Shown in pieces: positions 29,343-46,490 of a DNA stretch of 46,490 nt. The notes below the pieces were generated by a model that was given only the letters and a program-made list of their open reading frames with translations, did no database searches and was not told the origin of the DNA. Position numbers and translations under genes: made by a program. The DNA is from an uncultured Clostridia bacterium (lineage in GTDB: Bacteria > Bacillota > Clostridia > Oscillospirales > Acutalibacteraceae), in the NCBI GenBank assembly GCA_947623505.1, contig CANQGT010000015.1, positions 1-46,490 on the forward strand. The letters run 5' to 3'. Numbering within the stretch: the first letter of the stretch is position 1; every line of letters starts with the position of its first letter.

Positions 29343-29343
29343 T

Positions 29344-30159: not shown

Positions 30160-30172
30160 AGGAGGATAAGAA

Positions 30173-30433
30173 ATGGATAAATATTTAGTGCCGCCGCGAC
30201 TCACGAAAAAGCTGATATATTACGGATTGACATTCACGGAAATGCTCTTTATCGCTGTAACTTTTGTTTTTGCATTTGTTGCAAAACTCTATTTTTTGGT
30301 TTTCGTACCGGCGGTGATTTTTGTTTTGTCTGTTCGCATTGTGGACGGAGAAATGAACATCTTGACTTATGGTAAAAAAGTATATAATTACTTTTTCAAA
30401 ACCCAATCTTTTAGTTCCTTAGGAGATGATTGA
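30173..30433 (+). CDS. VirB3/PrgI-like T4SS protein
   Basis: 86 residues: a short hydrophilic start (YLVPPRLTKKLIYYGLT), two adjacent hydrophobic helices (about 22-55) and a cytoplasmic tail (NILTYGKKVYNYFFKTQSF). This is the PrgI topology, always next to VirB4. AAAGGAGG lies upstream. The stop is 1 bp before the preferred start of the VirB4 chimera. Confidence 0.82.
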   Translation: MDKYLVPPRLTKKLIYYGLTFTEMLFIAVTFVFAFVAKLYFLVFVPAVIFVLSVRIVDGEMNILTYGKKVYNYFFKTQSFSSLGDD

Positions 30434-30434
30434 T

Positions 30435-32276
30435 ATGGCAAAAAAAACAGAAAACATAAACAGTTTGATTTCATTTTCTATCAAAGATAAGTATGTAGAG
30501 ATCGGCGATATAAAAATCTTTTTTTATAGGTTTTATCCGCCAAATATATCAATACTTACCGATGCAGAGTTAGAAAATGAAATATCATCTTTCGGAGGCT
30601 TTATCGAAGCCGCCGGAATACCTATACAAATATTCGCTATGGATAAGGTGGAAGATCTCAGCGGAAACAAAGCTTTTTTTGAAAGTCTTTCGGATAAGTA
30701 TTCTGAATATACCGAAAAAATTGTTGAGCAGATCTCATCACACGATACAACAAACGGCAAAACAAATTCCGTACAAAGAGCGTATTATTTTGTAGTTCGT
30801 ATTAAAGCGGAAGCGGAAAATCAAACTTTTGTTGACGCATTGAGAAATCAGAATTTGAAATTTGCAACGGTTGAACGCGATGAGCTTGTGACGATCTTCA
30901 GGAATTACTTTTTAAGGGAGTTTTCGTCTTTTGATCTTTATACTTTTGACAAAGATACAAATAGCGAATATGCTGCGACGAAGAAAAAATCAATCAAGAA
31001 AATGGGACTTGAAGCATATGCCGATTTCAATCTGCGGCAACGACTTACGCCGCAGCGTATTGATTTTTTACCGCGCTATATTTTACAGAACGATTTTTAT
31101 CGTAAAGTAATTATGATTAAAAACTTTCCAAGCAGCATATCTGCTCCACATATTTTATCTTCTCTTTCTAAGATAAAATCGACAACATTTTCTGCGCGGC
31201 TGGAGCAAATGAGCGAATCTAAAGCCTCGACTCTTATTAACAATCAGTTCAATAATCAGTCGTCGAAGCGCAAAAGTTCTAAAAGAGTAACTGAAAAAAT
31301 AGACGCAGAAATTGATGAGCAAAACATTGAAGATTTTTATCGAGGACTTCAAGAGAGTAACAACAAGATATTTTTAACAAATATCTTCATTGAATTTTAC
31401 GCAGAAGATGAAAAATCACTCAATGCGCTTGAAAGAAAGATAAAAAATGTTCTTGCCGGCAATAAAATTACTTACGAAAGTCTGCGATTCGAGCAGAAGG
31501 AAGGTTTTAAGAGCGTAAACCCTCTTGGCAAAGATGAGACGCTGCATTTCAATTCTGAACTCATTAACGATCTTTTGCTTATGCTGCGCGACGCCTATGA
31601 CGGATCTCTCGGATATATTCTTAACGGCACTACCAACATTAGCAACAGCTCTATTATTGATTTTGACATCAATTCTTTGCTTATGGGCTCTAAAAACAGA
31701 ATGCAGGCCGTAATATTCAATATTATGACCTATGTATGGAATAGAATCGCCCAAAGGAAAGACAAAATATTATTTGCAGTAGATGAGCTTTCCTTTACTG
31801 TAACTGAAGAAGATCTAACTTCAATCTCTCTTAAGGGATATTACAACCGCGCCGATGATACTATTCATCTATCAAATAAATTAAACGACAGTGCGCGACT
31901 TGAAGTTATGTGTCACGAGCTCGCCCACGGAGTATTACATAAGACTTCCACGCAGCCAACTGAGATTAAGGAGTTTGAAGCCGAGTGCTTCGCTGCAATG
32001 CTTAAGCGAAAAATGGGTTATCCCGTTTCTGAAGAAAGTAAGCGATATATCAGTTCATATTACAAGAAAGCAATCGCCAAAAATCCGAAATTCGAGTGCA
32101 ACGCGACTCTTGACCGCCTTTCCAAGGCTTTTAAACACATATCCACCGGAATAGACGAAACTATAGCACAAGCCGGCTATGGTCTTGACAGGGAGCAATC
32201 GATTAACTTACAACAGGCGCAGAGCAAAGCGGTCGATGTGTCTAATATCAGCCAAAATTTTATGCAGGCTCTGTAA
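30435..32276 (+). pseudogene. VirB4 remnant fused in frame to a zincin-type peptidase
   Basis: The single open frame (613 residues from the ATG at 30435; the ATG at 30426 is too close to its ribosome-binding site) is a chimera. Numbering from the ATG at 30426: residues 1-370 are VirB4 N-domain. About 380-456 is a late piece of the VirB4 ATPase (YILNGTTNISNSSIIDFDIN, then Walker B ILFAVDELS). The Walker A part between them, normally about 200 residues, is missing. From about 457 the sequence changes to the C-terminal peptidase of ArdC/ImmA-like proteins, with HELAH (497-501) and a downstream EFEAE. As an ATPase it should be dead; the peptidase motif is intact. Confidence 0.8.
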
Positions 32277-32288
32277 AGCAGCCGTCTA

Positions 32289-34211
32289 TTGACTCTACTG
32301 TTTTATCAGAGCGCAAATTCAAATTTAAGAGTAAAAGGAGTGAGAAAAATTAAAAAGCCGTCATCAGGAAGAATAATATTAGCTGCTTTCGTAACGCTTA
32401 TTTTATTTCTTTTTCTAAATTTTCTGTTTTCCTCGCCTGAAATAATCAGTAACGGTCTGACCGCATATATTGTTGCAATTCCAAAGCTGCTTTGGCTTAA
32501 GCTTTTAATAAGCGTGCTTTTCGGTTTTCTTGTTGCAGTTGCCGGAAAACAAAACAGACTTGATTATATAGAAAACAAGGAAGTGGGTAATAAGCAGCAC
32601 GGTTCGGCACGGTTTATGACCGAACAAGAAATGCACGATAATTACACTTATGTTAAGCAAGGAAAAGAAAAACTGTCGGGCTTTGTTGTTGGCCGAGATA
32701 GTAACACCTGGATAACCGAAACGACAGATAAAACATTATGCCTTATCGCTCCGCCCGGCGGCGGTAAAACAAAAAGCGTTTTCATTCCTACAATTTATTA
32801 TAATGCTGCGGTTAATAAAAACACCAAAGGGGCAGGCGCGAGCTTGCTCCTTTTGGACGCAAAAAGCGAAAATTTAGCGACAACCGGAAAGCTTCTTGAG
32901 AATAGCGGATATGATGTTTTTTACCTCGACTTTCGCAAGCCGCTTGAAAGTTATCAATTCAATCTTATGAATGGTGTAAATCGCGAGATTGACGATTATT
33001 TCAAATCGAATTCAAAATCAGATCAGTTAATACATTACGCTAAAGCGGAAAGGTATGCTAAGCAGGTTTCGACAAGCATTATAAAGAACATTATGGGCGA
33101 GACTAAAGACAGCGCTTCTGACTTCTTTAACAACACAGCGCAAGGACTCATAACAGGTCTTATTCTATTGGTTTCACAGTATGGCAGCGAACAGGAAAGG
33201 CATATTATTTCTGTTTTCAAACTTATCGTCGAATTGAACGGTCTTATTGATAACAGCAATATTGAGACCGGACAACAACGATCCAAGCTTACAGACCTTT
33301 TGCAGTATATTGATGACAAAAGGATCACCGACTATGTTGGAGCAAGCGTAAACGCTGATGTCCGTACCTCGATGAATGTATTTTCATCGGCACTTGCAAA
33401 ACTGCTTGAATTCATCGATGCAGAGTTAGAACAAATGATATGCAGTCACAGCCCGGAGATCAACGCAGAAGATTTCATTAAAAAGCCGACTGCAATTTTT
33501 TTAGTCTGCCCCGATGAGGATTCTTCACGGCATTTTTTTGCAAGCCTTTTTATCCGCTATTTTACAACGCAGCTTATTGACCTTGCGGAACACAGTAAAA
33601 ATATGATATTGCAAAGGCAAGTTCTTTGCCTATGGGACGAGTTCGGAAATATGCCGGCAGTCAAAGATGTTGACGCTTTATTTACGGCGGCAAGGTCAAG
33701 AGGCATTAGATTTCTATATAGCATACAATCGTTTTCTCAACTTAAAAAAAGTTATAACAAAACTTATGAGGAAATTATACTTGACGCCTCGCAGATCTTA
33801 ATGTTCACTTATCTTGCACCCGCTGCATATGAAACAGCTAAACGCTTGTCTGATATACTCGGCTCACAAACCGTGTTATCAGGAACCGTTTCGCGGCGAA
33901 CTAATACTCTTGAAATCATATCTCACGACAGCACAAACACCTATCAAATGATGAAGCGCCCGCTAATGTTCCCCGACGAAATAATGTCATTGCCGATCGG
34001 CACCTACGTAGTTGTGCGCACGGGAGGAACGAGCTCACAGGCAGCAATGAAAACACACTTGCCATTGTTTACGGATTATTGCCGTATCTATCCACCATTT
34101 GAAAACAACAAAAAAATAAAATTTACCGAAATAAGCTACCTCAACGGTGACAAAATACGCCTTTTAGGTGCGCGTCAAAAAAACAAACTTACCATAGGTA
34201 TGTTTGACTAA
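32289..34211 (+). CDS. virD4: VirD4/TraG-type coupling protein
   Basis: The 640-residue ATPase recruits the DNA-relaxase complex to the T4SS. It has two N-terminal membrane helices (about 28-48 and 65-86), then Walker A APPGGGKTKS (154-163), DAKSEN, Walker B LCLWDEFGNMP, and the LFTAARSRGIRFLYSIQSFSQL and EEIILDASQILMF blocks of TraG/VirD4. The start is uncertain: TTG at 32289 lacks a site, whereas AAAGGAG at 32334-32340 would serve a start near 32340-32349 where only GTG (32340) or ATT is available. The 5' end may have been altered when the upstream chimera formed. The ATPase core is intact. Confidence 0.9.
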   Translation: MTLLFYQSANSNLRVKGVRKIKKPSSGRIILAAFVTLILFLFLNFLFSSPEIISNGLTAYIVAIPKLLWLKLLISVLFGFLVAVAGKQNRLDYIENKEVGNKQHGSARFMTEQEMHDNYTYVKQGKEKLSGFVVGRDSNTWITETTDKTLCLIAPPGGGKTKSVFIPTIYYNAAVNKNTKGAGASLLLLDAKSENLATTGKLLENSGYDVFYLDFRKPLESYQFNLMNGVNREIDDYFKSNSKSDQLIHYAKAERYAKQVSTSIIKNIMGETKDSASDFFNNTAQGLITGLILLVSQYGSEQERHIISVFKLIVELNGLIDNSNIETGQQRSKLTDLLQYIDDKRITDYVGASVNADVRTSMNVFSSALAKLLEFIDAELEQMICSHSPEINAEDFIKKPTAIFLVCPDEDSSRHFFASLFIRYFTTQLIDLAEHSKNMILQRQVLCLWDEFGNMPAVKDVDALFTAARSRGIRFLYSIQSFSQLKKSYNKTYEEIILDASQILMFTYLAPAAYETAKRLSDILGSQTVLSGTVSRRTNTLEIISHDSTNTYQMMKRPLMFPDEIMSLPIGTYVVVRTGGTSSQAAMKTHLPLFTDYCRIYPPFENNKKIKFTEISYLNGDKIRLLGARQKNKLTIGMFD

Positions 34212-34221
34212 ATAAAAAAAG

Positions 34222-34258
34222 CAACGGCTCAGGTGCACCGAGTGCATCAGAGCCGTTG
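34222..34258. repeat. hairpin carrying GTGCAC-N3-GTGCAC motif, copy 5
   Basis: CAACGGCTC (34222-34230) pairs with GAGCCGTTG (34250-34258), and the motif GTGCAC-CGA-GTGCAT (34233-34247) forms the apex of the stem. It lies between virD4 and the two-HTH gene, 27 nt before that ATG. An A7 run precedes the hairpin (T-run on the minus strand), so it is not a canonical plus-strand terminator. Confidence 0.8.
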
Positions 34259-34285
34259 AATTTAGAACACTTTAAGGAGAACACT

Positions 34286-35047
34286 ATGAAAAGATTTATT
34301 AAATTGCCGATCAGAGTCTTCGAGCTTGATCTCTCCCCTGCCCAGCTATTGGTTTATGCAGCCATTATTTCGCTTAAATCAAAAAATAACTTTACCATTG
34401 CATCAGCAAAAACAATATCAAGGCGTTGCGGAATGAGTGTCAACAGCGTTTATACTGCCGTAAACGCCCTTGTATCGGTTGGTTTGGTAAACAAGACAAA
34501 CTACATTAAAAACGGTAAAAAAGCCTCAAACGGCTATTCTATGCTTAATATCGGCGGAAAATTTGTCAAAATAGAATATGAGATTTTTAAAAAGGATCTT
34601 AAGCCTTCTGAATTCGCCGCCTACGTAGCAATAAAAAGCAAATGCAACAAATCAAACCGCGCTTATCCGTCACTTAAACAAATATCGAGGATAGCACATA
34701 TATGTATTGATACCGTGATAACCGCAGTTCGTGAGTTGTGCGTTAAAGGCTTTCTTGTTTTCAAACATTATATCCGCAAGTGTGGTTGCTATGGTCATAA
34801 CAATTATATTCTGTTTGATGAAACAACAGTAAAAGTGAAGCATATCGAAGAAAAAGTATCTCAAAAAAAGGCTTTTTCTTTTTTTAATAATTATAGGTAC
34901 TCGAAATTTTGGGCAACGTTATTAGAACCATTTAAAAACATCGTTAGAAATAAGATAAACACCTTAAGTAAAGTTATACATTCCGTAAACTTACATATAA
35001 AAGATCAGCTGACATCATCTTCAGATCGCAGATTGAAATTCTATTAA
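34286..35047 (+). CDS. two-HTH (replication-initiator-like) protein
   Basis: The ATG at 34286 (AAGGAG 7 nt upstream) gives 253 residues. Two winged-helix units follow each other: LSPAQLLVYAAIISL ... AKTISRRCGMSVNSVYTAVNALVSVGLV (about 15-70) and LKPSEFAAYVAIKSK ... LKQISRIAHICIDTVITAVRELCVKGFL (about 105-155). The C-terminal 100 residues are basic and unassigned. Such tandem HTH_36-type proteins resemble plasmid RepA/DnaD-like factors; it could start replication of the excised circle or regulate transfer. Family assignment is tentative. Confidence 0.65.
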   Translation: MKRFIKLPIRVFELDLSPAQLLVYAAIISLKSKNNFTIASAKTISRRCGMSVNSVYTAVNALVSVGLVNKTNYIKNGKKASNGYSMLNIGGKFVKIEYEIFKKDLKPSEFAAYVAIKSKCNKSNRAYPSLKQISRIAHICIDTVITAVRELCVKGFLVFKHYIRKCGCYGHNNYILFDETTVKVKHIEEKVSQKKAFSFFNNYRYSKFWATLLEPFKNIVRNKINTLSKVIHSVNLHIKDQLTSSSDRRLKFY

Positions 35048-35118
35048 AATATACATATGGGATTATTGCGCCTGTTTGTAATTAAAAATCCGCGTTTTTC
35101 TTTTTCTAAAAATAGATA

Positions 35119-35147
35119 TTGACGCACCCTATATTATAGGGTATAAT
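35119..35147 (+). promoter_or_regulatory. toxin-antitoxin promoter with perfect palindrome
   Basis: TTGACG (35119-35124), 17 bp, TATAAT (35142-35147). ACCCTATA-T-TATAGGGT (35126-35142) is a perfect 17-bp palindrome occupying the spacer, the expected autorepression site of the downstream pair. Confidence 0.85.
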
Positions 35148-35166
35148 GATAAAAAGAGGTGTTAGA

Positions 35167-35514
35167 TTGGAAAGAGAGTTTATTATGCTTCCCGAATTTG
35201 ACAGGAAGTGGAAGGAAATCGGTCTTACCGATTCAGAGTTGAGAACTTTGCAGGAGGAGCTTACCGTCAACCCCGCAAAGGGAGCCATTATACAAGGCAC
35301 CGGAGGTTTGCGTAAAATTAGAGTTGCCTTTGAAGGCAGAGGAAAGAGCTCAAGCGCACGCGTATGTTATGTGGACTTCGCAATTTTTGAAAAAATTTAT
35401 TTAATTACGGCATATACTAAGAATGAAAAAGACAATCTGACAAAAGAAGAAAGAAACGAAGTAAAAAAGCTGATAGAAATTCTGAAAAAGACGCAAAAAG
35501 GAGAATTGTTATGA
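35167..35514 (+). CDS. RelE/HigB-type toxin
   Basis: Predicted ribosome-dependent mRNA interferase. The ATG at 35146 overlaps the -10 box and cannot be used. TTG at 35167, with GAGGTG upstream and about 12 nt from the predicted transcript start, gives the family-like N-terminus MEREFIMLPEFDRKWKEIGL and 115 residues. KIRVAFEGRGKSSSARVCYVDF and YLITAYTKNEKDNLTKEERNE are typical of the HigB/RelE subgroup that precedes its antitoxin. The stop overlaps the antitoxin by 4 bp. Confidence 0.85.
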   Translation: MEREFIMLPEFDRKWKEIGLTDSELRTLQEELTVNPAKGAIIQGTGGLRKIRVAFEGRGKSSSARVCYVDFAIFEKIYLITAYTKNEKDNLTKEERNEVKKLIEILKKTQKGELL

Positions 35515-35822
35515 GTGTATATGAAAGCATATTGAATGGACTTAACGAAGCAATAGAATACGAAAACGGGCGCGGCACTGCACGTGTCGCCAAATGCACA
35601 GTGAATCCTGTTCCTGATTTTAATGCCACGGAAATTAAGGAAGTAAGAAACTCTTTAGGTATGACTCAGGCTACTTTTGCCCAGGTAATGGGCGTTTCGC
35701 AGAAAACAGTCGAAGCCTGGGAAGCCGGAACTAATAAACCCGTAGGCTCGGCAAGAAGATTTTTAAGTGTAGTAAAAAAGGATCCTACCCTGCTTACAAA
35801 GTGGAATATAATTTCAGCATAA
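35511..35822 (+). CDS. HigA-type HTH antitoxin
   Basis: The 103-residue protein has an extended N-terminus (about 1-38, the likely toxin-wrapping part) and an XRE HTH (EIKEVRNSLGMTQATFAQVMGVSQKTVEAWEAGTNKPVGSARRFL). It overlaps the toxin gene by 4 bp and has AAGGAG upstream. The HTH is expected to bind the 17-bp palindrome at 35126. The pair sits at the right end of the ICE, consistent with a stabilising role. Confidence 0.88.
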   Translation: MSVYESILNGLNEAIEYENGRGTARVAKCTVNPVPDFNATEIKEVRNSLGMTQATFAQVMGVSQKTVEAWEAGTNKPVGSARRFLSVVKKDPTLLTKWNIISA

Positions 35823-36250: not shown

Positions 36251-36805
36251 ATGAAAAAGGCGCTTCATTTTTTAACTTTGCCGCTTACGCAAGTCGTTGT
36301 AATCGGCTTGTGCGCGATTTGCCTGTTTTGCTTTGAAAGCGTACCGGGCTCGCGCTTGATCTTAGCTGTCATGAGTTCCGTCGCCTTTGTTTTTTATACC
36401 GCGGCGGGTTTCCTTTACTCAAAGGAAAGCAGTAAGGCGATTCGTATATCCTCCGTAGTATTCACCGTTTTACTGTTGTGGGGCGTTGCCTTCGGCTCCT
36501 ATGCCCTTTCGGAAGTCATCGGCGGCAACTGGCCCTATATTTTGGTTTTCTGCAACCCCGTTGTCTCCGATATAGTTAGCAGTTTCGTAAATCTGAACGA
36601 AATCAGCGTTTCTGTTTACTCAATAATCCTCAGCGCTCTCGCGCCTTTGGCCGTTGTTCCCACCGTTGTTTGCGGCAAAGCCTTTGAAACAAAAAACAAA
36701 ACCTTAAAAATCGTGCTGTTTGCGGTTTTGGCCGCCGTATTCATAACGCTGCTTGTTCTTGATATATTTGACGCGACCGCCTTTTTGAAAGCATTGAACG
36801 CTTGA
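36251..36805 (+). CDS. polytopic membrane protein of unknown function
   Basis: The ATG at 36251 follows GAAGGAGA and gives 184 residues; the 11 upstream in-frame codons lack support. Hydrophobic helices are predicted near 8-28, 36-55, 65-88, 125-147 and 155-172. Charged residues are few and no enzymatic motif is seen. Monocistronic between its own promoter and a strong terminator, immediately outside the ICE right end. Confidence 0.65.
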   Translation: MKKALHFLTLPLTQVVVIGLCAICLFCFESVPGSRLILAVMSSVAFVFYTAAGFLYSKESSKAIRISSVVFTVLLLWGVAFGSYALSEVIGGNWPYILVFCNPVVSDIVSSFVNLNEISVSVYSIILSALAPLAVVPTVVCGKAFETKNKTLKIVLFAVLAAVFITLLVLDIFDATAFLKALNA

Positions 36806-36834
36806 CCTTTTTGACACACAAAAAACAAATTTTT

Positions 36835-36861
36835 GCCCCGAAAAAACTTCGGGGCTTTTTT
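36835..36861 (+). terminator. rho-independent terminator
   Basis: GCCCCGAA (36835-36842) / TTCGGGGC (36848-36855) with T6, 30 bp after the membrane-protein stop. Confidence 0.9.
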
Positions 36862-37505
36862 GCGCTCGCGTATATTACATATTTGTAATTTAAACAGTCA
36901 CCGAAACGTCATTCGTAATCCGTAAGATAACGAGTGTATTATAAAATTCTCAATTTTTAAGAAAAAAATCACTTTTTGAAAAATTATGCCGAAAAGGTAT
37001 TGACAAACACATATATTTAAACTATATTTATTCCAAGGAACTGTACTATGTATTGTAGGATAGTTTGCCGACTAAATAAAAACGAGCCGATTTTCTACTA
37101 TTTGTAAAGTAATATTTCCGCTTTTATATGATTATATTTATTTCGCCGCAGCCGCCGTTTTCGCGGTTTTTTTGACCTTGTGGCGGCCACGACTTTTGTT
37201 TTTTGCTATTTCTTTATTTATATAAATAATTTATTAAATATTCCGCATCTATATATGAAAAGCCGTTAAAATCATTGACTGCTTATTGTCGGGCTTTTAT
37301 AATATACTTACTGCGCGTATGAAATTACGGCGCCGAAAATATACCGTTTGTATATATTTTTAGTCCGATCTGTACTAACTTGCTTTGTCGGCCGGGCGGC
37401 AAAAGCCCGTTTATTTTACCGGATTTTTATTTTTGGCGGGCAGAATCTTAATTTTTGCGTTTTAGCATAAAATCAGCGGTTCGATTCGGACAGGAGGCGG
37501 AGCCC
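36862..37505 (+). other. long A+T-rich intergenic leader upstream of the dlt-like operon
   Basis: No gene is supported in these 644 bp. A sigma-A-like promoter, TTGACA (37000-37005), 17 bp, TATATT (37023-37028), is followed by a terminator-like CCGC-CGTTTTC-GCGG with T7 near 37151-37172. A second promoter lies at 37275. The 37,030-37,175 segment could therefore be a short non-coding or attenuated transcript. No known riboswitch was recognised. Confidence 0.45.
37275..37303 (+). promoter_or_regulatory. promoter of the dlt-like operon
   Basis: TTGACT (37275-37280), 17 bp, TATAAT (37298-37303). The leader to the TTG start is about 195 nt. Confidence 0.7.
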
Positions 37506-39035
37506 TTGAAAAATGTTTTGGAATTTTTGGAGAAGACGGCTGAAAAGTTCCCCAGCAGACTCGCCGTTACGGACGAATATCAAAGCATAACATACGGCGA
37601 GCTGCTTGAAAGGAGCCGCCGCATAGGCAGCGCGCTTGCGGGAAAAATAACGCCGAAAGCCCCCGTCGCGGTGTTCGGCGAAAAAAGTATCGACACTCTT
37701 TGCGCTTTTTTCGGCACGGTTTACGGCGGAGGTTTTTATTCTCTGATAAATCCAATGCTTCCCGCCGAAAGACTTAAACAGATAAATTCCGTGCTTATGC
37801 CTGAAACCGTTATAACGAATCGGGAGGACGCGGAGCTCGCGGGCAGTGTTTTTGACGGGGCGGAGATCCTGCTCATCGACAGGCTTTTGCTTTCGGAAGA
37901 AAACACACGGCTTCTTGCTAAGATACGCGAATCCTCCGTTGACACGGATCCGCTTTACGCCAATTTCACATCGGGCTCCACGGGCGTTCCCAAAGGCGTG
38001 CTTGTGGGCCACCGCAGCGTTATGGATTTTATCGATAATTTCACGGAGCTGTTTTCGATAAGCGAAAACGACGTTATCGGAAATCAGGCGCCGTTTGACT
38101 TTGACGTTTCTGTAAAGGATATTTATTCGGCGATAAAAACCGGCGCTTCGCTTGTTATAATTCCGAAAAGGCTGTTTTCAAACCCAACGCAGCTGCTTGA
38201 CTTTATATGCGATCACGAAATAACGACTATGATATGGGCCGTTTCCGCCCTTTGCCTTATAAGCACGTTTCACGGGCTTGATTACAGAGTGCCGGAAAAG
38301 GTGAACAAGGTGCTTTTCAGCGGCGAGGTAATGCCGAAAAAGCATCTTGACATATGGATGAGCAGCCTGCCCGACGCCCGTTTCGTAAATCTTTACGGCC
38401 CCACCGAGATAACCTGCAACTGCACGTATCATATAATTGACAGGAGCAGAGTTTACGAAAACGGGATCCCGATAGGCAAGCCCTTTCCCAACAAGAACGT
38501 TTTCCTGCTCTCCGACAGCGGCGGCAGGATAACGGAATCGGGAGTATCCGGCGAAATATGCGTCGGAGGAACGGCGCTCGCTCTCGGATATTACAACGCC
38601 CCCGAGCAGACGGCGAAGGCGTTCGTTCAAAATCCTATGAACCGGAACTATCCCGAAATAATCTATAAGACGGGCGACTACGGAGAATACGACGGCGACG
38701 GCGAAATCATATTCTGCGGCCGCAGGGATTTTCAGATAAAGCATATGGGGCACCGCATAGAGCTTGAGGAAATCGAAAGGGCGATAAGCAATATAAACGG
38801 CATTGAAAGATGCTGCTGCCTGTTTGACGCGGAGAAGAGCAAGCTTTACGGATTTTATGTGGGCCCGCTCGAAAAAAGAGAGCTTCACACGGCGCTGAAG
38901 GAGAGCCTGCCCGAATTTATGATACCGGGCGCATTGAGAAAGCTTGAAAAAATGCCGCTTACCCCCAACGGAAAGATAGACAGAAAAGAATTGATGGGCA
39001 TGGTGAAAAGCAAAAATGGAAAAAAAGCCGATTGA
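37506..39035 (+). CDS. amino-acid-adenylating ligase, DltA-like
   Basis: Activates a carboxylic or amino acid with ATP and loads it on a carrier protein. TTG at 37506 is the start: AGGAGG lies 8 nt upstream and the N-terminus NVLEFLEKTAEKFPSRLAVT then aligns with DltA; the upstream extension is spurious. In the 509-residue form: P-loop TSGSTGVPKG (155-164), NQAPFDFDVS, SGEVMP, YGPTE (297-301), TGD (389-391), GRRDFQIK (405-412) and NGKIDRK with K490. The binding-pocket segment IWAVSALCLIS differs from the TSTPSFVQMC of D-alanine-specific DltA, so another substrate is likely. It overlaps the next gene by 20 bp. Confidence 0.88.
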   Translation: MKNVLEFLEKTAEKFPSRLAVTDEYQSITYGELLERSRRIGSALAGKITPKAPVAVFGEKSIDTLCAFFGTVYGGGFYSLINPMLPAERLKQINSVLMPETVITNREDAELAGSVFDGAEILLIDRLLLSEENTRLLAKIRESSVDTDPLYANFTSGSTGVPKGVLVGHRSVMDFIDNFTELFSISENDVIGNQAPFDFDVSVKDIYSAIKTGASLVIIPKRLFSNPTQLLDFICDHEITTMIWAVSALCLISTFHGLDYRVPEKVNKVLFSGEVMPKKHLDIWMSSLPDARFVNLYGPTEITCNCTYHIIDRSRVYENGIPIGKPFPNKNVFLLSDSGGRITESGVSGEICVGGTALALGYYNAPEQTAKAFVQNPMNRNYPEIIYKTGDYGEYDGDGEIIFCGRRDFQIKHMGHRIELEEIERAISNINGIERCCCLFDAEKSKLYGFYVGPLEKRELHTALKESLPEFMIPGALRKLEKMPLTPNGKIDRKELMGMVKSKNGKKAD

Positions 39036-40209
39036 AAACGTTTTGTCTGAATACAAAACCCCGTTTTATGTGTTTGACATAGGCGAGCTGCACCGCAGAG
39101 TGGAGCATATCAGGGAAAAAATACCGAAAGGCGTTTCCCTTTGCTATGCCATTAAGGCAAACACTTTTATCGTTAAGGAAATATGCGATAAGGTCGATAA
39201 ATTCGAGGTGTGTTCGCCCGGTGAGCTGAGCATTTGCCTGCGGCAGGGGATACCGCCCGAAAAGCTTGTTATTTCGGGAGTTTACAAAACGCCTGAGCTT
39301 TTCGACGAGATTTTCAAACGGCGTTTGCCGATAGGCTGTTTCACGGCGGAGTCCGCGGAGCAGTTTCGTATGCTTTCCGACCTCGCGCTGAAATACGGGC
39401 ACGAGGCAAAAATTATGCTGAGGCTCACAAGCGGGAACCAGTTCGGAATGGACGAAAGCGAAGTCAAAAGAATAATTTCGGAGCGTTTCGACAATAAATA
39501 TATCAGTATAGTCGGAATACAGTATTTTTCGGGTACCCAAAAAACCTCGGTAAAGCGGCTGAAGCCCGAAACGGAATATCTTGACGGCTTTATGGCGGAG
39601 CTTACGGAAAAATACGGATTCACCGTTGACGAGCTTGAGTTCGGAACGGGATTCCCCGTGAATTATTTCAACGGCGAAGAGTTTGACGAGGCGGCTTTGT
39701 TCAACGGATTCTCAGAGCTTATCGGAGCGATGAAATACAAGGCAAAAATTTCAATCGAGCTCGGCAGAAGCATCGCCGCGAGCTGCGGCAGCTACTTTAC
39801 GACGATAGTTGATAAAAAAACGAATAAGGGGCAAAACTACGCCATCGTTGACGGAGGTATGCACCAGCTCGTTTATTTCGGCCAGTTTATGGCTATGAAA
39901 AGGCCTTTTCTTGAGGTAATACCCGAAAGAAATACGGGAGAAGAGCGGGAATGGAATTTGTGCGGCTCGCTATGCACGTCAAACGACATTCTTGTTAAGC
40001 AGCTTCCTGTAAGAGATTTGCGGATAGGCGACACGGTGATGTTCAAAAACACCGGAGCCTACTGCCCCACGGAGGGTATCTCTTTGTTTTTGAGCAGGGA
40101 TCTGCCGCGAGTTCTTTTATTGGGCGATGACGGAAAAGTTATTTCCGTGAGAGAGCCCGTTGACACATACAAATTTAATTTATCGAAATACGAAAGGAAA
40201 GAAAACTGA
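39016..40209 (+). CDS. fold-type III PLP-dependent decarboxylase (LysA/BtrK-like)
   Basis: The 397-residue protein has an alanine-racemase-type barrel with the PLP lysine K47 in CYAIKAN and the phosphate-binding ELGR at 248-251. The C-terminal beta domain has the catalytic Cys C320 in GSLCTSND and Y349 in GAYCPTEG. The usual HxGSQ loop is replaced by QYFSGTQ. Relatives decarboxylate diaminopimelate or ornithine, or, in butirosin biosynthesis (BtrK), glutamate held on a carrier protein. Its place between a ligase and a carrier-protein gene favours the last type; free amino acids remain possible. Overlaps the ligase by 20 bp. Confidence 0.85.
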   Translation: MEKKPIENVLSEYKTPFYVFDIGELHRRVEHIREKIPKGVSLCYAIKANTFIVKEICDKVDKFEVCSPGELSICLRQGIPPEKLVISGVYKTPELFDEIFKRRLPIGCFTAESAEQFRMLSDLALKYGHEAKIMLRLTSGNQFGMDESEVKRIISERFDNKYISIVGIQYFSGTQKTSVKRLKPETEYLDGFMAELTEKYGFTVDELEFGTGFPVNYFNGEEFDEAALFNGFSELIGAMKYKAKISIELGRSIAASCGSYFTTIVDKKTNKGQNYAIVDGGMHQLVYFGQFMAMKRPFLEVIPERNTGEEREWNLCGSLCTSNDILVKQLPVRDLRIGDTVMFKNTGAYCPTEGISLFLSRDLPRVLLLGDDGKVISVREPVDTYKFNLSKYERKEN

Positions 40210-40439
40210 TGGAAAGACTTATTGAAATTCTTGAGGACATTCAGCCCGACGCGGATTATGAGACCTGCACAACGCTTATTGACGACCATATTCTCAATTC
40301 CCTCGCGGTCATCGCCCTTGTTGCGGAAATAGAGGACGAATACGATATTACCGTTCCCGCGGTGGAAATAATTCCCGAAAACTTTAATTCCGCGCAAAAG
40401 CTTTACGAGCTTATAGAACGCCTTCAAGAGGAAGGCTGA
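40209..40439 (+). CDS. acyl/aminoacyl carrier protein (DltC-like)
   Basis: A 76-residue acidic four-helix carrier protein. The phosphopantetheine serine is S31 in HILNSLAVIALVAEIEDEYDI; NSL replaces the common DSL. The end (ENFNSAQKLYELIERL) resembles DltC. It starts on the last base of the decarboxylase stop and ends 1 bp before the MBOAT gene, so the ligase-decarboxylase-carrier-transferase order is fixed by tight coupling. Confidence 0.88.
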   Translation: MERLIEILEDIQPDADYETCTTLIDDHILNSLAVIALVAEIEDEYDITVPAVEIIPENFNSAQKLYELIERLQEEG

Positions 40440-40440
40440 T

Positions 40441-42039
40441 ATGCTCGTAACTTCATATTGCTCCGTAATATTCCTTGGGATTTTTCTGCCCTTATCGGTC
40501 TTTTTGTATATAATTGCGCCGAAAAAAGCGCGTCCGTATATTCTGCTGGTTGAAAGCTACGCGCTTTTCGCGCTGATGAGCGGACTGCTGATAATTTATC
40601 CGGCCGTAACGGCGCTTACAGTCTACGGCACCGGAATATGGCTTTCGTCGGTTCAGCGGAAAAGGAACGCTCTGCTCAGGGAATGCGAAAAAGAACGGAA
40701 AAAAGCGATCAGAGCACAATACATAAATAAGCAGCGAATGATAGTCGCGCTTGCGCTCGTGCTTAATATAGGCGCGCTCGTCTTGTTGAAATACACAAAA
40801 TTTCTCACCGTAAACGCAAACGACGTACTTTCGCTTTTAAATGCCTCTTTTGAGTTTAAAATACCCAAATTCGCAGCGCCGATGGGTATTTCCTTTTACA
40901 CTCTTATGGCGGCTTCATATGTACTCGACGTTTACCATGAAAAAATATCGGCGGACAGAAATTTTTGGCGCGTGGCTCTTTATCTGAGCTTTTTCCCGCA
41001 GATAATGGAGGGGCCGATCTGCCGCTATTCCGACACGGCGGCTCAATTATGGTCGGGAGAACGCGTAAGATTTAAAAATCTTACGTTCGGCCTCCAGCGC
41101 GTCGCATTCGGCGTTATGAAAAAGATAGTTATCGCCGACAGGCTCAATTCATTCGTTGAAACGGTATATTTGGGCTTTTCGGATTTCGACGGCGGCATAA
41201 CCGCGCTTGCCGCGATACTTTACACCTGCCAGCTTTATATGGAATTTTCCGGCACTATGGATATAGTTATAGGTTGCGGCGAAATATTCGGCGTTACGAT
41301 AACCGAAAATTTCAGGCGGCCGTTCTTTTCAAAAACAATATCGGAATTTTGGCAGCGCTGGCACATAACGCTCGGCACATGGTTTAAGGATTATATATAT
41401 TATCCCGTCTCAATGTCAAAGCCGATGAAGCGCCTAACCTCAAATATGCGCAAAAAACTCGGCGTTTACTACGGCCCGATGCTCGCGAGCACGATAGCCC
41501 TTTTCTGCGTGTGGCTTTGCAACGGCCTTTGGCACGGCGCCGGATGGCGTTTCATTTTCTTCGGTATGTATCACTTCGTTCTTATCACCTGCGGAAATCT
41601 TATTGCCCAACCCGCTATGAAATTAAACAAAAGGCTGGGTATCAACAACGCCTCAAAGCCTTACAGAGCGATGCAGATATTAAGAACGACGCTGCTCGTG
41701 TGCATAGGCGAAATGTTCTTCCGTGCCGACGGACTGCGCGCCGGATTCGTTATGTTCGGCAAAATATTTACCGATTTTTCTTTAAAATCTTTCGGCAACG
41801 GCACTGTTCTGAAACTTGGAATGGACGGGCTCGACTTTATCGTGATCGGCGTTGCCGTGCTGATAGTATTTGTTATCAGCGTTCTTAACGAGCGCGGCGT
41901 TTCCGTTCGCGAGGAGCTCTCAAAAAAGCACCTGATAATAAGGTGGTTAATTATTTACGCCCTGATAATGTTCACCGTTATCTTCGGCGCTTACGGCCCC
42001 GGCTACGATCCCGTTCCGCCGATATACGCGGATTTCTGA
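40441..42039 (+). CDS. MBOAT-family O-acyltransferase (DltB/AlgI-like)
   Basis: The 532-residue polytopic enzyme has about eleven hydrophobic helices. H308 in WQRWHITLGTWFKDYIYYP and the invariant H365 in CNGLWHGAGW identify the membrane-bound O-acyltransferase family. DltB takes D-alanine from DltC across the membrane and AlgI acetylates alginate. Here, with a dedicated carrier protein, the donor should be the carrier-bound aminoacyl group. It is followed after 28 bp by an SGNH gene, matching the DltB-DltD arrangement. Confidence 0.92.
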   Translation: MLVTSYCSVIFLGIFLPLSVFLYIIAPKKARPYILLVESYALFALMSGLLIIYPAVTALTVYGTGIWLSSVQRKRNALLRECEKERKKAIRAQYINKQRMIVALALVLNIGALVLLKYTKFLTVNANDVLSLLNASFEFKIPKFAAPMGISFYTLMAASYVLDVYHEKISADRNFWRVALYLSFFPQIMEGPICRYSDTAAQLWSGERVRFKNLTFGLQRVAFGVMKKIVIADRLNSFVETVYLGFSDFDGGITALAAILYTCQLYMEFSGTMDIVIGCGEIFGVTITENFRRPFFSKTISEFWQRWHITLGTWFKDYIYYPVSMSKPMKRLTSNMRKKLGVYYGPMLASTIALFCVWLCNGLWHGAGWRFIFFGMYHFVLITCGNLIAQPAMKLNKRLGINNASKPYRAMQILRTTLLVCIGEMFFRADGLRAGFVMFGKIFTDFSLKSFGNGTVLKLGMDGLDFIVIGVAVLIVFVISVLNERGVSVREELSKKHLIIRWLIIYALIMFTVIFGAYGPGYDPVPPIYADF

Positions 42040-42067
42040 TAAATGAAAAAAGGAAGGAATTGTCTTA

Positions 42068-43081
42068 ATGAAAAAGATGTCAAAAAAAATCGCGGCGTGC
42101 GCGGCATTTGTTGTCATTCTTGCAATTATTTTGATGATTTTCTCTTTCCTTTTATCCCCCGTAAATCTCGGAAAAAATTATTTTGACAAGGTTGACACCA
42201 TCAGCAGAATATGCGAAGAACCCGATAATTCAATAGACGTTCTTTTTATAGGAGACAGCGTTGCTTATTCCTCGATTTCCCCGATGGAGATGTGGAAAAA
42301 CAACGGCATAACCTCTTACGTTTGCGCCAGCAGCGGTCAGATCCTCCCCGTATCGGAAGGCTATATTGAGGAGGCGTTTGAAAATCAAAAGCCTAAGGTG
42401 GTTGTTTTTGAGGCAAACGCGATTTACCGCAAAAACAAAAAGGCGGCTAATAGTTCCGCAAAATTTGAATCCCTGTTTTCGGTTTTCGCGTTTCACAATC
42501 ACTGGAAAAATCTCGCTAATCTTGTTGTTCCCAAAACGCTTTCCGGTTCTCTTACGGATAATTTAAAGGGATTTGTATTTCGCACCGCGCAGAAGCCTCT
42601 TGTTAAAACGAATTATATGCGCCGCACGGAGAAATGCAAGCCTCTGCCCGACGGAAACGAGGAAATTTTTGAGCGCATTGTGGATCTATGCAGGCAAAAC
42701 GGCGCCGAAATACTGCTTGTAAATTCCCCGAACGCCGCTCATTGGAACTACGAAAAGCACAACGGAATACAAAAGCTGGCCGACAAATTCGGCATAACAT
42801 ATCTTGATATGAATCTTATGAAAAAGCAGGTTCCCATAGATTGGGAAAAAGACACGAGAGACAAGGGCGACCATCTCAATTATTACGGCGCCAAAAAGGT
42901 TTGCGCCTTTTTAGGTAATTATCTTATTGAGAATTACGGCCTTTCCGACCACCGCGGGGACGAATCTTTTAACAAGTGGAACGAAGACCTCGAAACTTAT
43001 ATGATATTTGCCGGCTCGGCCGACGCGCGTTACGACAATCTTGACGGCGAATTAAAAACCAAACGCACTTTTGAAATTTAG
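42068..43081 (+). CDS. membrane-anchored SGNH/DltD-like protein, copy 1
   Basis: The 337-residue protein has an N-terminal membrane anchor (about 8-30), then an extracellular SGNH fold: block I FIGDSVAYS with S64, a middle VVFEANAIYR strand, and block V KGDHLNYYGA with the Asp/His pair. These are the Ser-His-Asp residues used by DltD and AlgX-like proteins. It could pass the acyl group from the MBOAT protein to the surface polymer. AAGGAA lies upstream of the ATG. Paralogous to the next gene. Confidence 0.82.
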   Translation: MKKMSKKIAACAAFVVILAIILMIFSFLLSPVNLGKNYFDKVDTISRICEEPDNSIDVLFIGDSVAYSSISPMEMWKNNGITSYVCASSGQILPVSEGYIEEAFENQKPKVVVFEANAIYRKNKKAANSSAKFESLFSVFAFHNHWKNLANLVVPKTLSGSLTDNLKGFVFRTAQKPLVKTNYMRRTEKCKPLPDGNEEIFERIVDLCRQNGAEILLVNSPNAAHWNYEKHNGIQKLADKFGITYLDMNLMKKQVPIDWEKDTRDKGDHLNYYGAKKVCAFLGNYLIENYGLSDHRGDESFNKWNEDLETYMIFAGSADARYDNLDGELKTKRTFEI

Positions 43082-43092
43082 GAGATGAATCC

Positions 43093-44037
43093 GTGGGTAA
43101 AACAATAAAAAAAATCGCACTTTGCACGGCTTTTGTTCTGATACTTGCGTCTATCCTTATCGTTTCCTCAATGCTTGCCACTCCCGACAGCGCGCATTCA
43201 TTCAACAGCGCCGCGGCAAACGCGATTCTTGACGAACCCGATAATTCAATAGACGTCCTGTTTCTCGGAGACAGCGGAACTTACGCCGCCGTATCCCCTA
43301 TGGAAATGTATAAAAATTACGGCATAACCTCTTACGTTTGCGCCTCAAACGCTCAGTATCTCAGTATGTCCGAAATGTTTTTAAAGCAGGCTTTTGAAAA
43401 GCAAAAGCCGAAAATCGTGATACTTGAGGCATATTCCGTTCAAAGAAAAATGAGATTCAACGTTTCACTTACAAGCCGTGTTGAAAATCTTTTTTCCGTG
43501 TTTAAATTTCACAACAGATGGAAGAAAATAGGCGATTATCCATCGTTTGATTTTCTGAAAAGCACCATCACGGACGACAATAAGGGCTACCGCTATTTTA
43601 CCGCCAGCGTGCCCGTTCTGAATCCGAACAATTACGATGTTCCCACCGACAGCACGGAGAGCGTACCCGCCGCCAACGAAAAGGTTTTCGCCTCCATATT
43701 GGAATACTGCCGCGAAAACGGCGCGGAGCTGATTCTTTTCAACGTTCCGAATATGAGATGGTGGAATTACGAAAAGCACAACGGCATTAGTGAACTTGCG
43801 GAGAAATACGGCGTTACATATGTTGATATGAACATTATGGACGACGACGTGGGCATAGACTGGTCAAAAGAGACGATAGATATGGGCGATCATCTCAATT
43901 ATTCGGGAGCCGTTAAAACCTCGGTTTACATAGGTAAATATCTGAAAACGAATTATTATCTTGACGATCACAGAAAAGACGGAAATTATTCGCAATGGAA
44001 TGAAGCGCTTGAAAGATATCTTTATTCAGTCACCTGA
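43093..44037 (+). CDS. membrane-anchored SGNH/DltD-like protein, copy 2
   Basis: 314 residues from a GTG start with AGGAG upstream. Same layout as the preceding gene: anchor (about 7-28), EPDNSIDVLFLGDS with S61, SPMEMYKNYGITSYVCAS, and MGDHLNYSGA with the Asp/His pair. The two proteins share long identical stretches (EPDNSIDVLF, NGITSYVCAS-like, NYEKHNGI), so they arose by tandem duplication. Perhaps each acts on a different acceptor or they form a heteromer. Confidence 0.82.
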   Translation: MGKTIKKIALCTAFVLILASILIVSSMLATPDSAHSFNSAAANAILDEPDNSIDVLFLGDSGTYAAVSPMEMYKNYGITSYVCASNAQYLSMSEMFLKQAFEKQKPKIVILEAYSVQRKMRFNVSLTSRVENLFSVFKFHNRWKKIGDYPSFDFLKSTITDDNKGYRYFTASVPVLNPNNYDVPTDSTESVPAANEKVFASILEYCRENGAELILFNVPNMRWWNYEKHNGISELAEKYGVTYVDMNIMDDDVGIDWSKETIDMGDHLNYSGAVKTSVYIGKYLKTNYYLDDHRKDGNYSQWNEALERYLYSVT

Positions 44038-44060
44038 TTTTCCGGAAACACCGTCAAAAA

Positions 44061-44088
44061 AGCGGAAAGCATTTGCTTGCTTTCCGCT
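44061..44088 (+). terminator. hairpin ending the dlt-like operon
   Basis: A perfect 10-bp stem, AGCGGAAAGC/GCTTTCCGCT, with an 8-nt loop, 24 nt after the last stop; the tail (TCTATTT) is a weak T-run. Confidence 0.7.
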
Positions 44089-44101
44089 TCTATTTATCAT
44101 A

Positions 44102-44130
44102 TTGACTTCGGAGTTGTTTTGAAATATCAT
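44102..44130 (+). promoter_or_regulatory. promoter of the GH43 gene
   Basis: TTGACT (44102-44107), 17 bp, TATCAT (44125-44130), about 50 bp before the ATG. Confidence 0.6.
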
Positions 44131-44180
44131 AAAAGCGGAGACACTTATTCAAACCTTATAATCTTTCGGAGGATAAATCT

Positions 44181-45221
44181 ATGAACAGACGTTTTCCGCT
44201 TATATTTGTTTTTCTGCCGATAATAATAACCGCTTTGGCGATGACTCTTGCGGCCTGCTCGGATAATTCCGATAATACCGTTCCCGTTCATACGGGCGCC
44301 ATAGCTTTCGACAACAAGCTCGGCGACAGCGGCAGCGATCCGTGGATAATTCTGAAAGACGGAGTTTACTACTATTGCTATTCCGCGGAAGGCGGCGTAT
44401 GCGTTGCGAAATCAGAAAGCCTCGGTGAAATCGGGCACGTCGGCGGAGTGAAGGTATGGTCGCCGGACGATCCCGAATACTCAAGCGATATTTGGGCGCC
44501 CGAGCTCCATTACATCAACGGTAAATGGTATATTTACGTGGCGGCGGACGACGGCGACAACGCAAATCACCGCATGCTCTGCCTTGAGGGCACGGCGGAC
44601 GACCCGACAAAGCCTTTTGTTACAAAATCCGTTATGCGCGCGCAGACCGACCGCTGGGCAATAGACGGCTCCGTTATGGAATACGGCGAAAAGCTATATT
44701 TCATTTGGTCGGGCTGGGAAGGAACGGAAAACGTTGACCAGAGGATCTATATAGCGCTCCTTGAAAACCCGTGGACAATTTCGGGCGACAGAGTTGAGAT
44801 AAGCAAACCCGAGTACGGCTGGGAAAGAAAAGGCGGCAAGCCCAAAATTAACGAAGGCCCCACCGCGCTGGAGCTCAACGGAACGCGGCACATAGTGTAT
44901 TCCGCCTCGGGAAGCTGGTGCGACGATTACTGCCTCGGCCTGCTTACCCTTACGGGAAACGACCCGATGGAACCTCAGAACTGGGAAAAATCACGCAAAC
45001 CCGTTTTTAAAAAGACAGACAGCGTATTCGGCCCCGGCCACGCCTCTTTCACGACTTCAAAGGACGGAAAGCGCCGTTATATTGTTTACCACGCCAACGA
45101 GGAAAAAGGCTCCGGCTGGAGCGGCAGAGCGCTTTGGGCTCAGGAATTTACCGTTGACGAAAATAACTTCCCCGTTTTCGGCAAGCCACTTCCCGCCGGC
45201 AGCACGCAGTATACGGACTGA
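44181..45221 (+). CDS. GH43-family lipoprotein glycosidase
   Basis: The 346-residue protein has a lipobox (LAAC, C26), so it should be anchored on the outer membrane leaflet. The mature part is a five-bladed propeller of the arabinanase/xylosidase type: GDSGSDPWIILKDGVYYYCYS (catalytic base Asp near residue 53), DIWAPELHYINGKWYIYVAADDG, WAIDGSV (the modulating Asp) and INEGPTALE (general-acid Glu). No carbohydrate-binding module is present. Probably trims arabinose- or xylose-containing side chains. It has its own promoter and terminator, so it is not part of the dlt-like operon. Confidence 0.88.
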   Translation: MNRRFPLIFVFLPIIITALAMTLAACSDNSDNTVPVHTGAIAFDNKLGDSGSDPWIILKDGVYYYCYSAEGGVCVAKSESLGEIGHVGGVKVWSPDDPEYSSDIWAPELHYINGKWYIYVAADDGDNANHRMLCLEGTADDPTKPFVTKSVMRAQTDRWAIDGSVMEYGEKLYFIWSGWEGTENVDQRIYIALLENPWTISGDRVEISKPEYGWERKGGKPKINEGPTALELNGTRHIVYSASGSWCDDYCLGLLTLTGNDPMEPQNWEKSRKPVFKKTDSVFGPGHASFTTSKDGKRRYIVYHANEEKGSGWSGRALWAQEFTVDENNFPVFGKPLPAGSTQYTD

Positions 45222-45392: not shown

Positions 45393-46490
45393 TTATTTCT
45401 TTGAATGCTTACCTTCTTCGCCGACAAGCTGACTTTCCCCGAAAAGATGAGCAGACGTGACCATCATACCTGCCACGGAGAAGAACATCATAACAATCCA
45501 AAATACAAGACTGCTGTCGGCTCCGGTATTGGGACTGCTGCCATGCGGATTGTCAAACGGCTTGTCGGGCAGTTCGGTTTCCTTATCATCGTTACGGTTG
45601 GTGAAATCGGCCTGAGCGGTTCCGTCTTCGGGAATTACGCCGTTTTCGCCCGTAGACGTGGTTTTGTAACCGTCAAGGTTCGCTTCCTCCTCCGTCACTG
45701 TGTAGGTGATTCCGGCAGGCAGATCCTTGGCTGTGGCGCTCTCTCCGCTCTTGAGAACAAACTCGGCTACGCCGTCAACGAAATCCATCTCGCCGAATAA
45801 GCCGTTTACGCTCCTGTCGCTCAATTCAACACGGAAGTGCCACTCTTTGCTTAAATCTCCCGCCTCGCCCGTGACCGTCTTTGTAACGGTGAGGTTTCCG
45901 TAATGCTTTTCGGGCGGAGGCGGCGGATCCTTATGATTCAGGAAATCTGCCTGAGCGGTTCCGTCTTCGGGAATTACGCCATTTTCGCCCGTAGACGTGG
46001 TTTCGTAACCGTCAAGGTTCGCTTCCTCCTCTGTCACCGTATAGGTGATTCCGGCAGGAAGATCCTTGGCCGCGGCGCTCTCGCCGCTCTTGAGAACAAA
46101 CTCGGCTACGCCGTCAACGAAATCCATTTCGCCGAACGTACCGTTTACGCTCGTGTCGCTCAATTCAACACGGAAGTGCCACTCTTTGCTTAAATCTCCC
46201 GCCTCGCCCGTGACCGTCTTTGTAACGGTGAGGTTTCCGTAATGTTTTTCCGGCGGCGGCGGATCCTTATGATTCAGGAAATCTGCCTGAGCGGTTCCAT
46301 CCTCGGGAATTACGCCGTTTTCGCCCGTGGACGTTGTTTCGTAACCGTCAAGGTTCGCTTCTTCCTCCGTTACCGTGTAGGTGATTTCGGCTAGCAGATC
46401 CTTGGCTGTGGCACTCTCGCCGCTCTTGAGAACAAACTCGGCTACGCCGTCAACGAAATCCATTTCGCCGAACGTACCGTTTACGCTCTT
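45393..46490 (-). CDS. repeat-rich cell-wall surface protein (5' end outside window)
   Basis: The frame is open to the window edge, so the N-terminus is missing. The visible 365 residues contain three copies (the first partial) of a unit of 112-113 residues with beta-sandwich look: NLTVTKTVTGEAGDLSKEWHF, GEMDFVDGVAEFVLKSGES, GITYTVTEEEANLDGY (an E-box-like block), ending in a proline spacer PPPPEKHYG. Copies are nearly identical at the DNA level, with periods of 339 and 336 bp. The C-terminus has an SPNTG sorting-type motif, a hydrophobic helix and a short hydrophilic tail ending HSKK. A sortase-anchored stalk protein is inferred. Confidence 0.85.
   Translation of the reverse strand, partial: KSVNGTFGEMDFVDGVAEFVLKSGESATAKDLLAEITYTVTEEEANLDGYETTSTGENGVIPEDGTAQADFLNHKDPPPPEKHYGNLTVTKTVTGEAGDLSKEWHFRVELSDTSVNGTFGEMDFVDGVAEFVLKSGESAAAKDLPAGITYTVTEEEANLDGYETTSTGENGVIPEDGTAQADFLNHKDPPPPPEKHYGNLTVTKTVTGEAGDLSKEWHFRVELSDRSVNGLFGEMDFVDGVAEFVLKSGESATAKDLPAGITYTVTEEEANLDGYKTTSTGENGVIPEDGTAQADFTNRNDDKETELPDKPFDNPHGSSPNTGADSSLVFWIVMMFFSVAGMMVTSAHLFGESQLVGEEGKHSKK

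Follow-up and report, generated by a model that had tools for sequence, protein, structure and literature searches.

The window analyzed here, a stretch of 46,490 nucleotides of contig CANQGT010000015.1 (assembly GCA_947623505.1) from an uncultured Clostridia bacterium of the Acutalibacteraceae, carries at positions 37506-44037 a single tight block of six genes on the + strand, which encode an adenylating ligase, a fold-III pyridoxal phosphate (PLP) decarboxylase, a carrier protein, a membrane-bound O-acyltransferase (MBOAT) and two SGNH proteins. An earlier note on this DNA had described the block as dlt-like, and all six genes were located where it had placed them. The first gene (37506..39035) codes for a dlt-like amino-acid adenylating ligase (PF00501, E 1.9e-63) with the pocket code D V K I L S L C N K; its TTG start at 37506 is a sensible one, with AGGAGG at 37492-37497, and lies within an open frame that reaches back to 37455. 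The second (39016..40209) encodes a decarboxylase of the BtrK/VinO type (PF02784/PF00278). Its 20-base overlap with the ligase gene (39016-39035) is borne out, as is its abutment on the gene for the phosphopantetheine carrier protein (40209..40439; PF00550), the decarboxylase stop and the carrier ATG having one base in common (40209). A 1-base gap separates the carrier stop from the start of the MBOAT gene (40441..42039; PF03062), which is followed by the genes for SGNH protein 1 (42068..43081), with an N-terminal helix, and for its paralogue SGNH protein 2 (43093..44037). The Pfam families backing these assignments are AMP-binding, Orn_Arg_deC_N/Orn_DAP_Arg_deC, PP-binding and MBOAT.

The neighbourhood search suggested in the earlier note was run, and the gene set recurs in Clostridia, in some Erysipelotrichaceae and in one Streptococcus suis strain. 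A decarboxylase scan of one genome per species (84,980 species) turned up 131 relatives; 80 loci were retained, with Lacrimispora, Anaerocolumna, Claveliimonas, Coprococcus catus, Merdibacter and the S. suis strain among the cassette-bearing taxa. Of 391 genomes drawn evenly from the class, 14 carry the decarboxylase at E <= 1e-60, and 18 of 198 nearer relatives carry it at 46% identity or more, the window genome being among them in both cases; 11 further matches in the nearer relatives, at 26-30% identity, have the LysA motif. The cassette, which numerous gut and anaerobic bacteria possess, is therefore patchy and accessory, even inside the genus. The counts that follow refer to 95 distinct loci, from which L036 and L037 had been removed as copies of L054 and L055; all 95 were found via the decarboxylase and are thus silent on how often the ligase stands alone. 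The ligase adjoins the decarboxylase in 94 of them (93 by automatic count plus L078, where frames overlap), and the remaining one, L126, begins at a contig edge. Automatic counts place the carrier in 90 loci (it is also present in L084 and L101), the MBOAT in 89 and the SGNH gene in 81. Exactly the order ligase-decarboxylase-carrier-MBOAT-SGNH is found in 61 loci, MBOAT-SGNH-ligase-decarboxylase-carrier in seven and two MBOAT/SGNH pairs in five, while L272 and L273 have decarboxylase-carrier-ligase-MBOAT. Such linkage greatly exceeds what chance would give, and its retention through rearrangement (at least three gene orders are seen) speaks for a shared function of the genes.

The ligase scores 333.8 bits against TIGR01733 and 295.7 bits against the DltA model, below the cut-off of 559.85, and its pocket reads DVK..S.CNK, as opposed to DLMTYDAVAK in S. 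suis DltA. Both agree with the departure from DltA that the earlier note had seen, and the score goes against a D-alanine-specific ligase insofar as sequence can address this point. Residues D217, V218, K221, S289, C321 and N322 (numbered on the 526-residue frame from 37455), which with the aid of alignments we take to occupy the corresponding GrsA pocket positions, are identical in all 94 readable rows, including that of the window; two further rows are gapped. A separate sample anchored on the ligase (match at E <= 1e-90 in 79 of the 391 genomes) provided 90 readable ligase frames from 81 loci, decarboxylases being looked for up to about 1.5 kb from the ligase. The DVK..S.CNK pocket is present in 14 of 14 ligases with a decarboxylase within that distance and in only one of the 76 without (Fisher p 1.7e-15, a value uncorrected for kinship, so that independence is overstated). 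The 14 genomes concerned are the same 14 obtained in the separate decarboxylase search, and in the sole exception, L294, a contig end cuts the side on which L272 and L273 carry the decarboxylase. The earlier note had asked whether the decarboxylase might be absent from homologous loci; the outcome is the opposite, with the decarboxylase present where this pocket occurs. Ligase specificity hence shifts with the decarboxylase, as expected if the latter acts on the acyl group loaded by that ligase. The commonest class of decarboxylase-free ligases has the pocket DAKCAGLGMK, mostly with carrier and MBOAT directly after, and the code DAKDLGVV of surfactin A1 is assigned to Glu/Asp in an excerpt of PMC10548584.

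Taken together, these observations lead us to postulate, with a probability of roughly 0.6, that the genes form a self-contained cassette for decarboxylation of a dicarboxylic amino acid on the carrier and transfer of the product to a surface polymer by the MBOAT and SGNH proteins. The ligase would adenylate the dicarboxylic amino acid, probably via its side-chain carboxylate, and load the carrier, and the decarboxylase would strip the alpha-carboxylate from the carrier-held group to leave an omega-aminoacyl thioester. Since one carboxylate has to be kept for the thioester and another, beside the amine, is lost, the scheme calls for side-chain activation of an amino acid with two carboxylates. 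The first choice for the product would be a beta-alanyl group from aspartate and the second a gamma-aminobutyryl group from glutamate; aspartate appears favoured because a gamma-aminobutyryl ester should be prone to lactam closure and no butirosin-like protecting enzyme is visible. The MBOAT would then pass the acyl group through the membrane to the tyrosine in the tail at its own C terminus, from which an SGNH protein would take it to esterify a hydroxyl of the surface polymer, most likely a glycerol-phosphate (teichoic-acid-like) one, where the group would keep a free primary amine and thus a positive charge. The earlier note had advanced the same combination of dlt logic and decarboxylase: its gene logic is well supported by the conserved linkage, pocket and motif, while its chemistry, and with it the substrate, acyl group, polymer and charge effect, we infer. 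Beyond what the earlier note covers come the tyrosine tail of the MBOAT, sister cassettes that lack the decarboxylase or contain a GNAT gene, and the ordinary dlt operon of the S. suis host.

Several lines of evidence bear on the decarboxylase. Its best PDB sequence match is BtrK (2j66/7ru7; 117 bits, versus 101 for the top diaminopimelate (DAP) decarboxylase), and BtrK 7ru7 is also the best structural match of its model (E 8.4e-33, template modelling (TM) score 0.87), with DAP decarboxylases close behind at TM about 0.8 to 0.85, so that the rank of BtrK over these enzymes decides little by itself. The motifs are more telling. The PLP lysine K47 and the catalytic C320 are found in 96 of 96 rows, the latter within a CT..D motif (T321 in 90 rows and S in six, D324 in all 96), whereas the 11 LysA rows of related genomes all have CESGD. 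CT..D is also seen in a VinO-like row, in an exosortase-A-associated row and in two relatives with carrier genes nearby, and alignment with BtrK pairs LCTPED and QFGMDES with LCTSND and QFGMDES of the cassette. With CTSND instead of CESGD and 174.3 bits against the lysA model (cut-off 297.9), the protein is unlike LysA in motif and score, in line with the BtrK-type assignment of the earlier note. In the decarboxylase tree the cassette clade (100/100) stands apart from the LysA rows (100/98). By its motifs, then, the enzyme is predicted to be of the carrier-acting kind. That it might be an ordinary lysA in a chance place was considered and rejected on account of the linkage, the motif and the occurrence of a lysA-like gene elsewhere in the genome (G000:C7), which scores 268.8 bits, below the lysA cut-off, and has CENCD in place of CESGD.

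The same evidence weighs on the possibility that the decarboxylase has a free amino acid as its substrate and makes the monomer for the ligase (beta-alanine, gamma-aminobutyrate or lysine), the rest working like dlt. Many enzymes of the fold-III family do decarboxylate free amino acids, and DAP decarboxylases come near BtrK by both sequence and structure. Against this stand the replacement of the LysA glutamate, the sharing of CT..D with carrier-linked relatives, the separate lysA-like gene and the precedents for carrier-bound chemistry. According to the available part of PMC11284099, VinN loads 3-methylaspartate on VinL, where VinO decarboxylates it, and the free decarboxylated product is not incorporated; in bolagladin biosynthesis, BolO, BolC and BolN are proposed to make a beta-alanyl-carrier from aspartate in like manner, and feeding of beta-alanine did not rescue a bolN deletion (PMC7756342, in excerpt). 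We consider supply of a free monomer unlikely.

The remaining proteins are the carrier and those of the postulated export half. The carrier has its modification serine, Ser31, in 91 of 91 rows and scores below the cut-off of the DltC model. The MBOAT reaches 147.8 bits against the DltB model (cut-off 375), and its His308 and His365 are conserved in all 94 readable rows. Its C-terminal residues 527-532, PIYADF (42019..42036, + strand), contain a tyrosine, Y529, present in 93 of 93 readable rows, and 88 of 95 MBOATs have a Y..F terminus. According to PMC12148441, the acyl shuttle is the DltX tyrosine in dlt and the MBOAT's own tail in PatA, for which tyrosine acetylation was shown; by its sequence, the Y..F tail of the cassette MBOAT belongs to the DltX/PatA motif class and is its predicted acyl shuttle. 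No separate DltX-like small frame was detected at 36800-44300 of the window by a scan that does find one before S. suis dltA (a frame of 47 residues ending FIYNEF), and the two matches that it gave among the 95 loci do not resemble DltX. The S. suis genome also offers an internal control, in that its ordinary DltB (414 residues) is tail-less and its cassette MBOAT (533 residues) ends in PIYANF. The tail is likewise present in four of four decarboxylase-free cassettes whose MBOAT end was read. The two last proteins were left unnamed by Pfam and NCBIfam, with DUF362 below its cut-off. The AlphaFold model of SGNH protein 1 (mean predicted local distance difference test score 86.7) matches SGNH/GDSL hydrolases, and in 94 aligned rows G62 is found in 93, D63 in 81, S64 in 91, D265 in 89 and H269 in 89; SGNH protein 2 aligns with it at 49% identity and has the G-D-S and DHLN motifs in its translation. 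Fold and conserved residues in protein 1, and identity and motifs in protein 2, uphold their naming as SGNH proteins. DltD was not among the matches listed in the fold searches, which excludes nothing.

As regards the acceptor, the cassette of Merdibacter massiliensis follows genes for an ABC exporter, a cytidylyltransferase, three cytidine diphosphate (CDP)-glycerol transferases and an acyltransferase-3. In the window genome (completeness 96.67%), three matches to CDP-glycerol transferases are present, and PF03062 has no match besides that of the cassette. The Merdibacter cluster and these matches point to a glycerol-phosphate polymer as the putative acceptor. Alternatively, the acyl group might go to a lipid or to a secreted small molecule instead of a wall polymer, in keeping with most cassettes not lying beside the polymer genes that were looked for. 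Besides the teichoic-type cluster of Merdibacter, what speaks against such a destination is that the MBOAT/SGNH pairs with a shuttle tail dealt with in PMC12148441 serve to acylate polymers, and we regard it as improbable.

Two further proposals concern the substrate. The ligase might load meso-diaminopimelate, from which the decarboxylase would make a lysyl group on the carrier; kinship with lysA would agree with this, and a basic group would likewise add positive charge. The glutamate of CESGD contacts DAP. In the cassette enzyme this motif is replaced by CT..D, and lysine itself could be loaded directly, so we give this proposal little credence. Weakest of all, and scarcely credible, is activation of aspartate at its alpha-carboxylate followed by PLP-dependent removal of the beta-carboxylate, with or without epimerisation, to give a carrier-bound alanyl thioester. 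D217 and the pocket as a whole would allow ordinary activation of an alpha-amino acid, and fold III also holds alanine racemase (PF01168 matches the decarboxylase with 31.1 bits, over its cut-off of 24.1), but we know of no fold-III beta-decarboxylase, and BtrK, the nearest characterised relative, removes the alpha-carboxylate (PMC7857480, in the portion available).

A number of observations nevertheless weigh against on-carrier decarboxylation followed by polymer acylation. At some loci the gene set is incomplete: L126 has neither carrier nor MBOAT within 6 kb downstream, and an MBOAT is missing from the neighbourhood of L083 and L109. The automatic count gave no SGNH gene for 14 loci. Re-reading of 10 of them brought out a divergent SGNH-like gene in six, three of which show G-S-S and none of which shows the D..H.N pattern; in L083, L109, L126 and L129 no SGNH gene was found. 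In the other four (L076, L108, L113 and L127), as in L129, the sequence ends within 1.4 kb after the decarboxylase. CDP-glycerol (glycerophosphate) transferase-like genes lie near just two of the 95 loci, the flanks of which are often short, and naming the polymer from neighbour genes in general was given up for this reason. In the ligase, lysine 239 (K221), for which the surfactin A1 code had suggested a role as carboxylate binder, was dropped as proof of a carboxylate-binding pocket, since it also occurs in the decarboxylase-free DAKCAGLGMK class and is thus no proof alone of a carboxylate-bearing substrate. Position 331 is arginine in VinN-like and exosortase-A ligases and asparagine in cassette ligases, so recognition must differ and not simply be common to them, and D217 (position 235), being the normal alpha-amino anchor too, would fit alpha-activation. 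The loop before QFG, which had been considered as a trait shared by the cassette with VinO and BtrK, was rejected as such: it is short only in the cassette enzymes among the rows compared and long in BtrK, VinO-like, carrier-linked relatives and LysA, which means that the cassette decarboxylases are not close copies of any of these. Finally, in a tree without BtrK itself, and with the VinO-like row named from its neighbour genes, ties to the VinO and exosortase relatives are weakly supported (83/79 and 79/76).

Comparison with known systems helps to place the cassette. With dltXABCD it shares an adenylating ligase, a carrier, an MBOAT, an SGNH protein and the logic of a tyrosine shuttle, but it adds a decarboxylase, its ligase, carrier and MBOAT fall below the DltA, DltC and DltB cut-offs, and its shuttle tyrosine is fused to the MBOAT where dlt has a separate DltX. 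The S. suis genome has both systems, with a true DltA at 745.1 bits and a cassette ligase at 287 bits, and is the only one of 17 cassette-bearing genomes with a ligase over the DltA cut-off. VinN/VinO/VinL, BolO/BolN/BolC and BtrK/BtrI likewise place an acidic amino acid on a free-standing carrier for PLP-dependent decarboxylation, in the Bol case as a proposal and not in vitro according to the extract of its source. The product of such modules feeds a polyketide, a peptide or an aminoglycoside, whereas the cassette has MBOAT and SGNH export genes instead. PatA/PatB-type systems resemble it in an MBOAT with conserved histidines and a C-terminal tyrosine motif, and in an SGNH partner with serine and histidine; PatA, however, uses acetyl-CoA, and the cassette, as dlt does, brings a ligase and a carrier of its own. 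In a similar manner, the exosortase-A pair (TIGR03098/TIGR03099) consists of an adjacent AMP ligase and fold-III decarboxylase, there among glycosyltransferase genes. Of the NCBIfam models, TIGR03099 is the one that the window decarboxylase matches best (187.3 bits, below the cut-off of 478.45), and the ligase has 199.9 bits against TIGR03098 (cut-off 592.35). In the one S. meliloti stretch examined no MBOAT is annotated beside that pair, for which we know of no function. The cassette is, in sum, best placed as a putative variant form of carrier-dependent MBOAT-SGNH envelope acylation that would work like dlt and is not a member of it. Titles and the starts of abstracts, mostly of open literature, yielded no description of a decarboxylase-bearing dlt-like cassette, which may be described in subscription journals.

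The ligase-anchored sample also revealed sister cassettes. At least nine of the 90 ligases (L234, L261, L269, L279, L281, L284, L291, L297 and L299) are followed by a GNAT-family gene, at the decarboxylase's place, and then a carrier; with the genes downstream of the ligase read in 12 of 81 loci, nine is a minimum. Six of these nine GNAT cassettes have the ligase code D.K..(A/G/S)L(V/C)DK, and in L294 a GNAT gene stands between ligase and MBOAT. Two ligases of differing pocket code with one carrier and one MBOAT detected are present in L282 and L285-L290, seven genomes of one family, in tandem in both of the two layouts examined, and L280, of another family, has three dlt-like ligases. The window cassette appears as a branch of a larger modular system built around ligase, carrier and MBOAT as its common core. 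Tentatively, and at a little under even odds, we suggest that Clostridia harbour a modular envelope aminoacylation in which a dlt-like core would be combined with interchangeable carrier-acting remodelling enzymes (decarboxylase, GNAT, tandem ligases), following a logic like that of nonribosomal peptide synthetases and delivering non-standard groups such as beta-alanyl. Separately, the dlt-like ligases of L164, L241, L255 and L276 have serine for aspartate at position 235 (SMLY.ALDIK) and may not load an ordinary amino acid.

D-alanylation is the standard Gram-positive route to positive surface charge. If the on-carrier scheme is true, a widespread alternative could account for the adjustment of that charge in Clostridia that lack a recognisable dlt operon, through omega-amino acyl esters whose amine, by general amine chemistry, should be more basic, and secondary-metabolite carrier chemistry would be linked to cell-envelope biology.

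Some minor features surround the block. A consensus scan found a promoter-like site (TTGACT, 17 nucleotides, TATAAT; 37275..37303, + strand) matching at 11 of 12 positions, which is weak given that 18 such sites were found in the region against 12.9 (standard deviation 3.7) expected. Between it and the ligase start lies a leader of about 200 bases (37304-37505), with a GC hairpin and then a T-rich stretch at 37393-37409; a search of 901 bases around the leader gave no Rfam match up to E 1. A terminator-like hairpin with a 12-pair stem (44060..44089, + strand) closes the operon, 24 such sites having been found in the region versus 11.9 (standard deviation 3.3) expected. Across the 95 loci, a response-regulator cluster occurs in 28 and a kinase cluster in 27, with 18 response-regulator and 19 kinase members directly upstream of the ligase on the same strand, about a fifth of the loci (L074, for instance); these two-component genes were checked with Pfam at three loci. 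Upstream response-regulator and histidine kinase genes would suit an envelope-stress-regulated system. A phage-type integrase gene about 2.5 kb upstream of the S. suis cassette suggests mobility. Just upstream of the window cassette (28018-35822) there are conjugative-transfer genes (TrbL, type IV coupling protein), a Toprim/DUF3991 gene, an M78-type gene and a RelE/HTH toxin-antitoxin-like pair, which suggest an integrated element adjoining it. Directly after the terminator-like hairpin comes a family-43 glycoside hydrolase gene (44181-45221), and the flanking region on either side (25073-26986 and 45393-46463) encodes a pilin-backbone-like protein and a protein with DUF7601/SpaA-type repeats.

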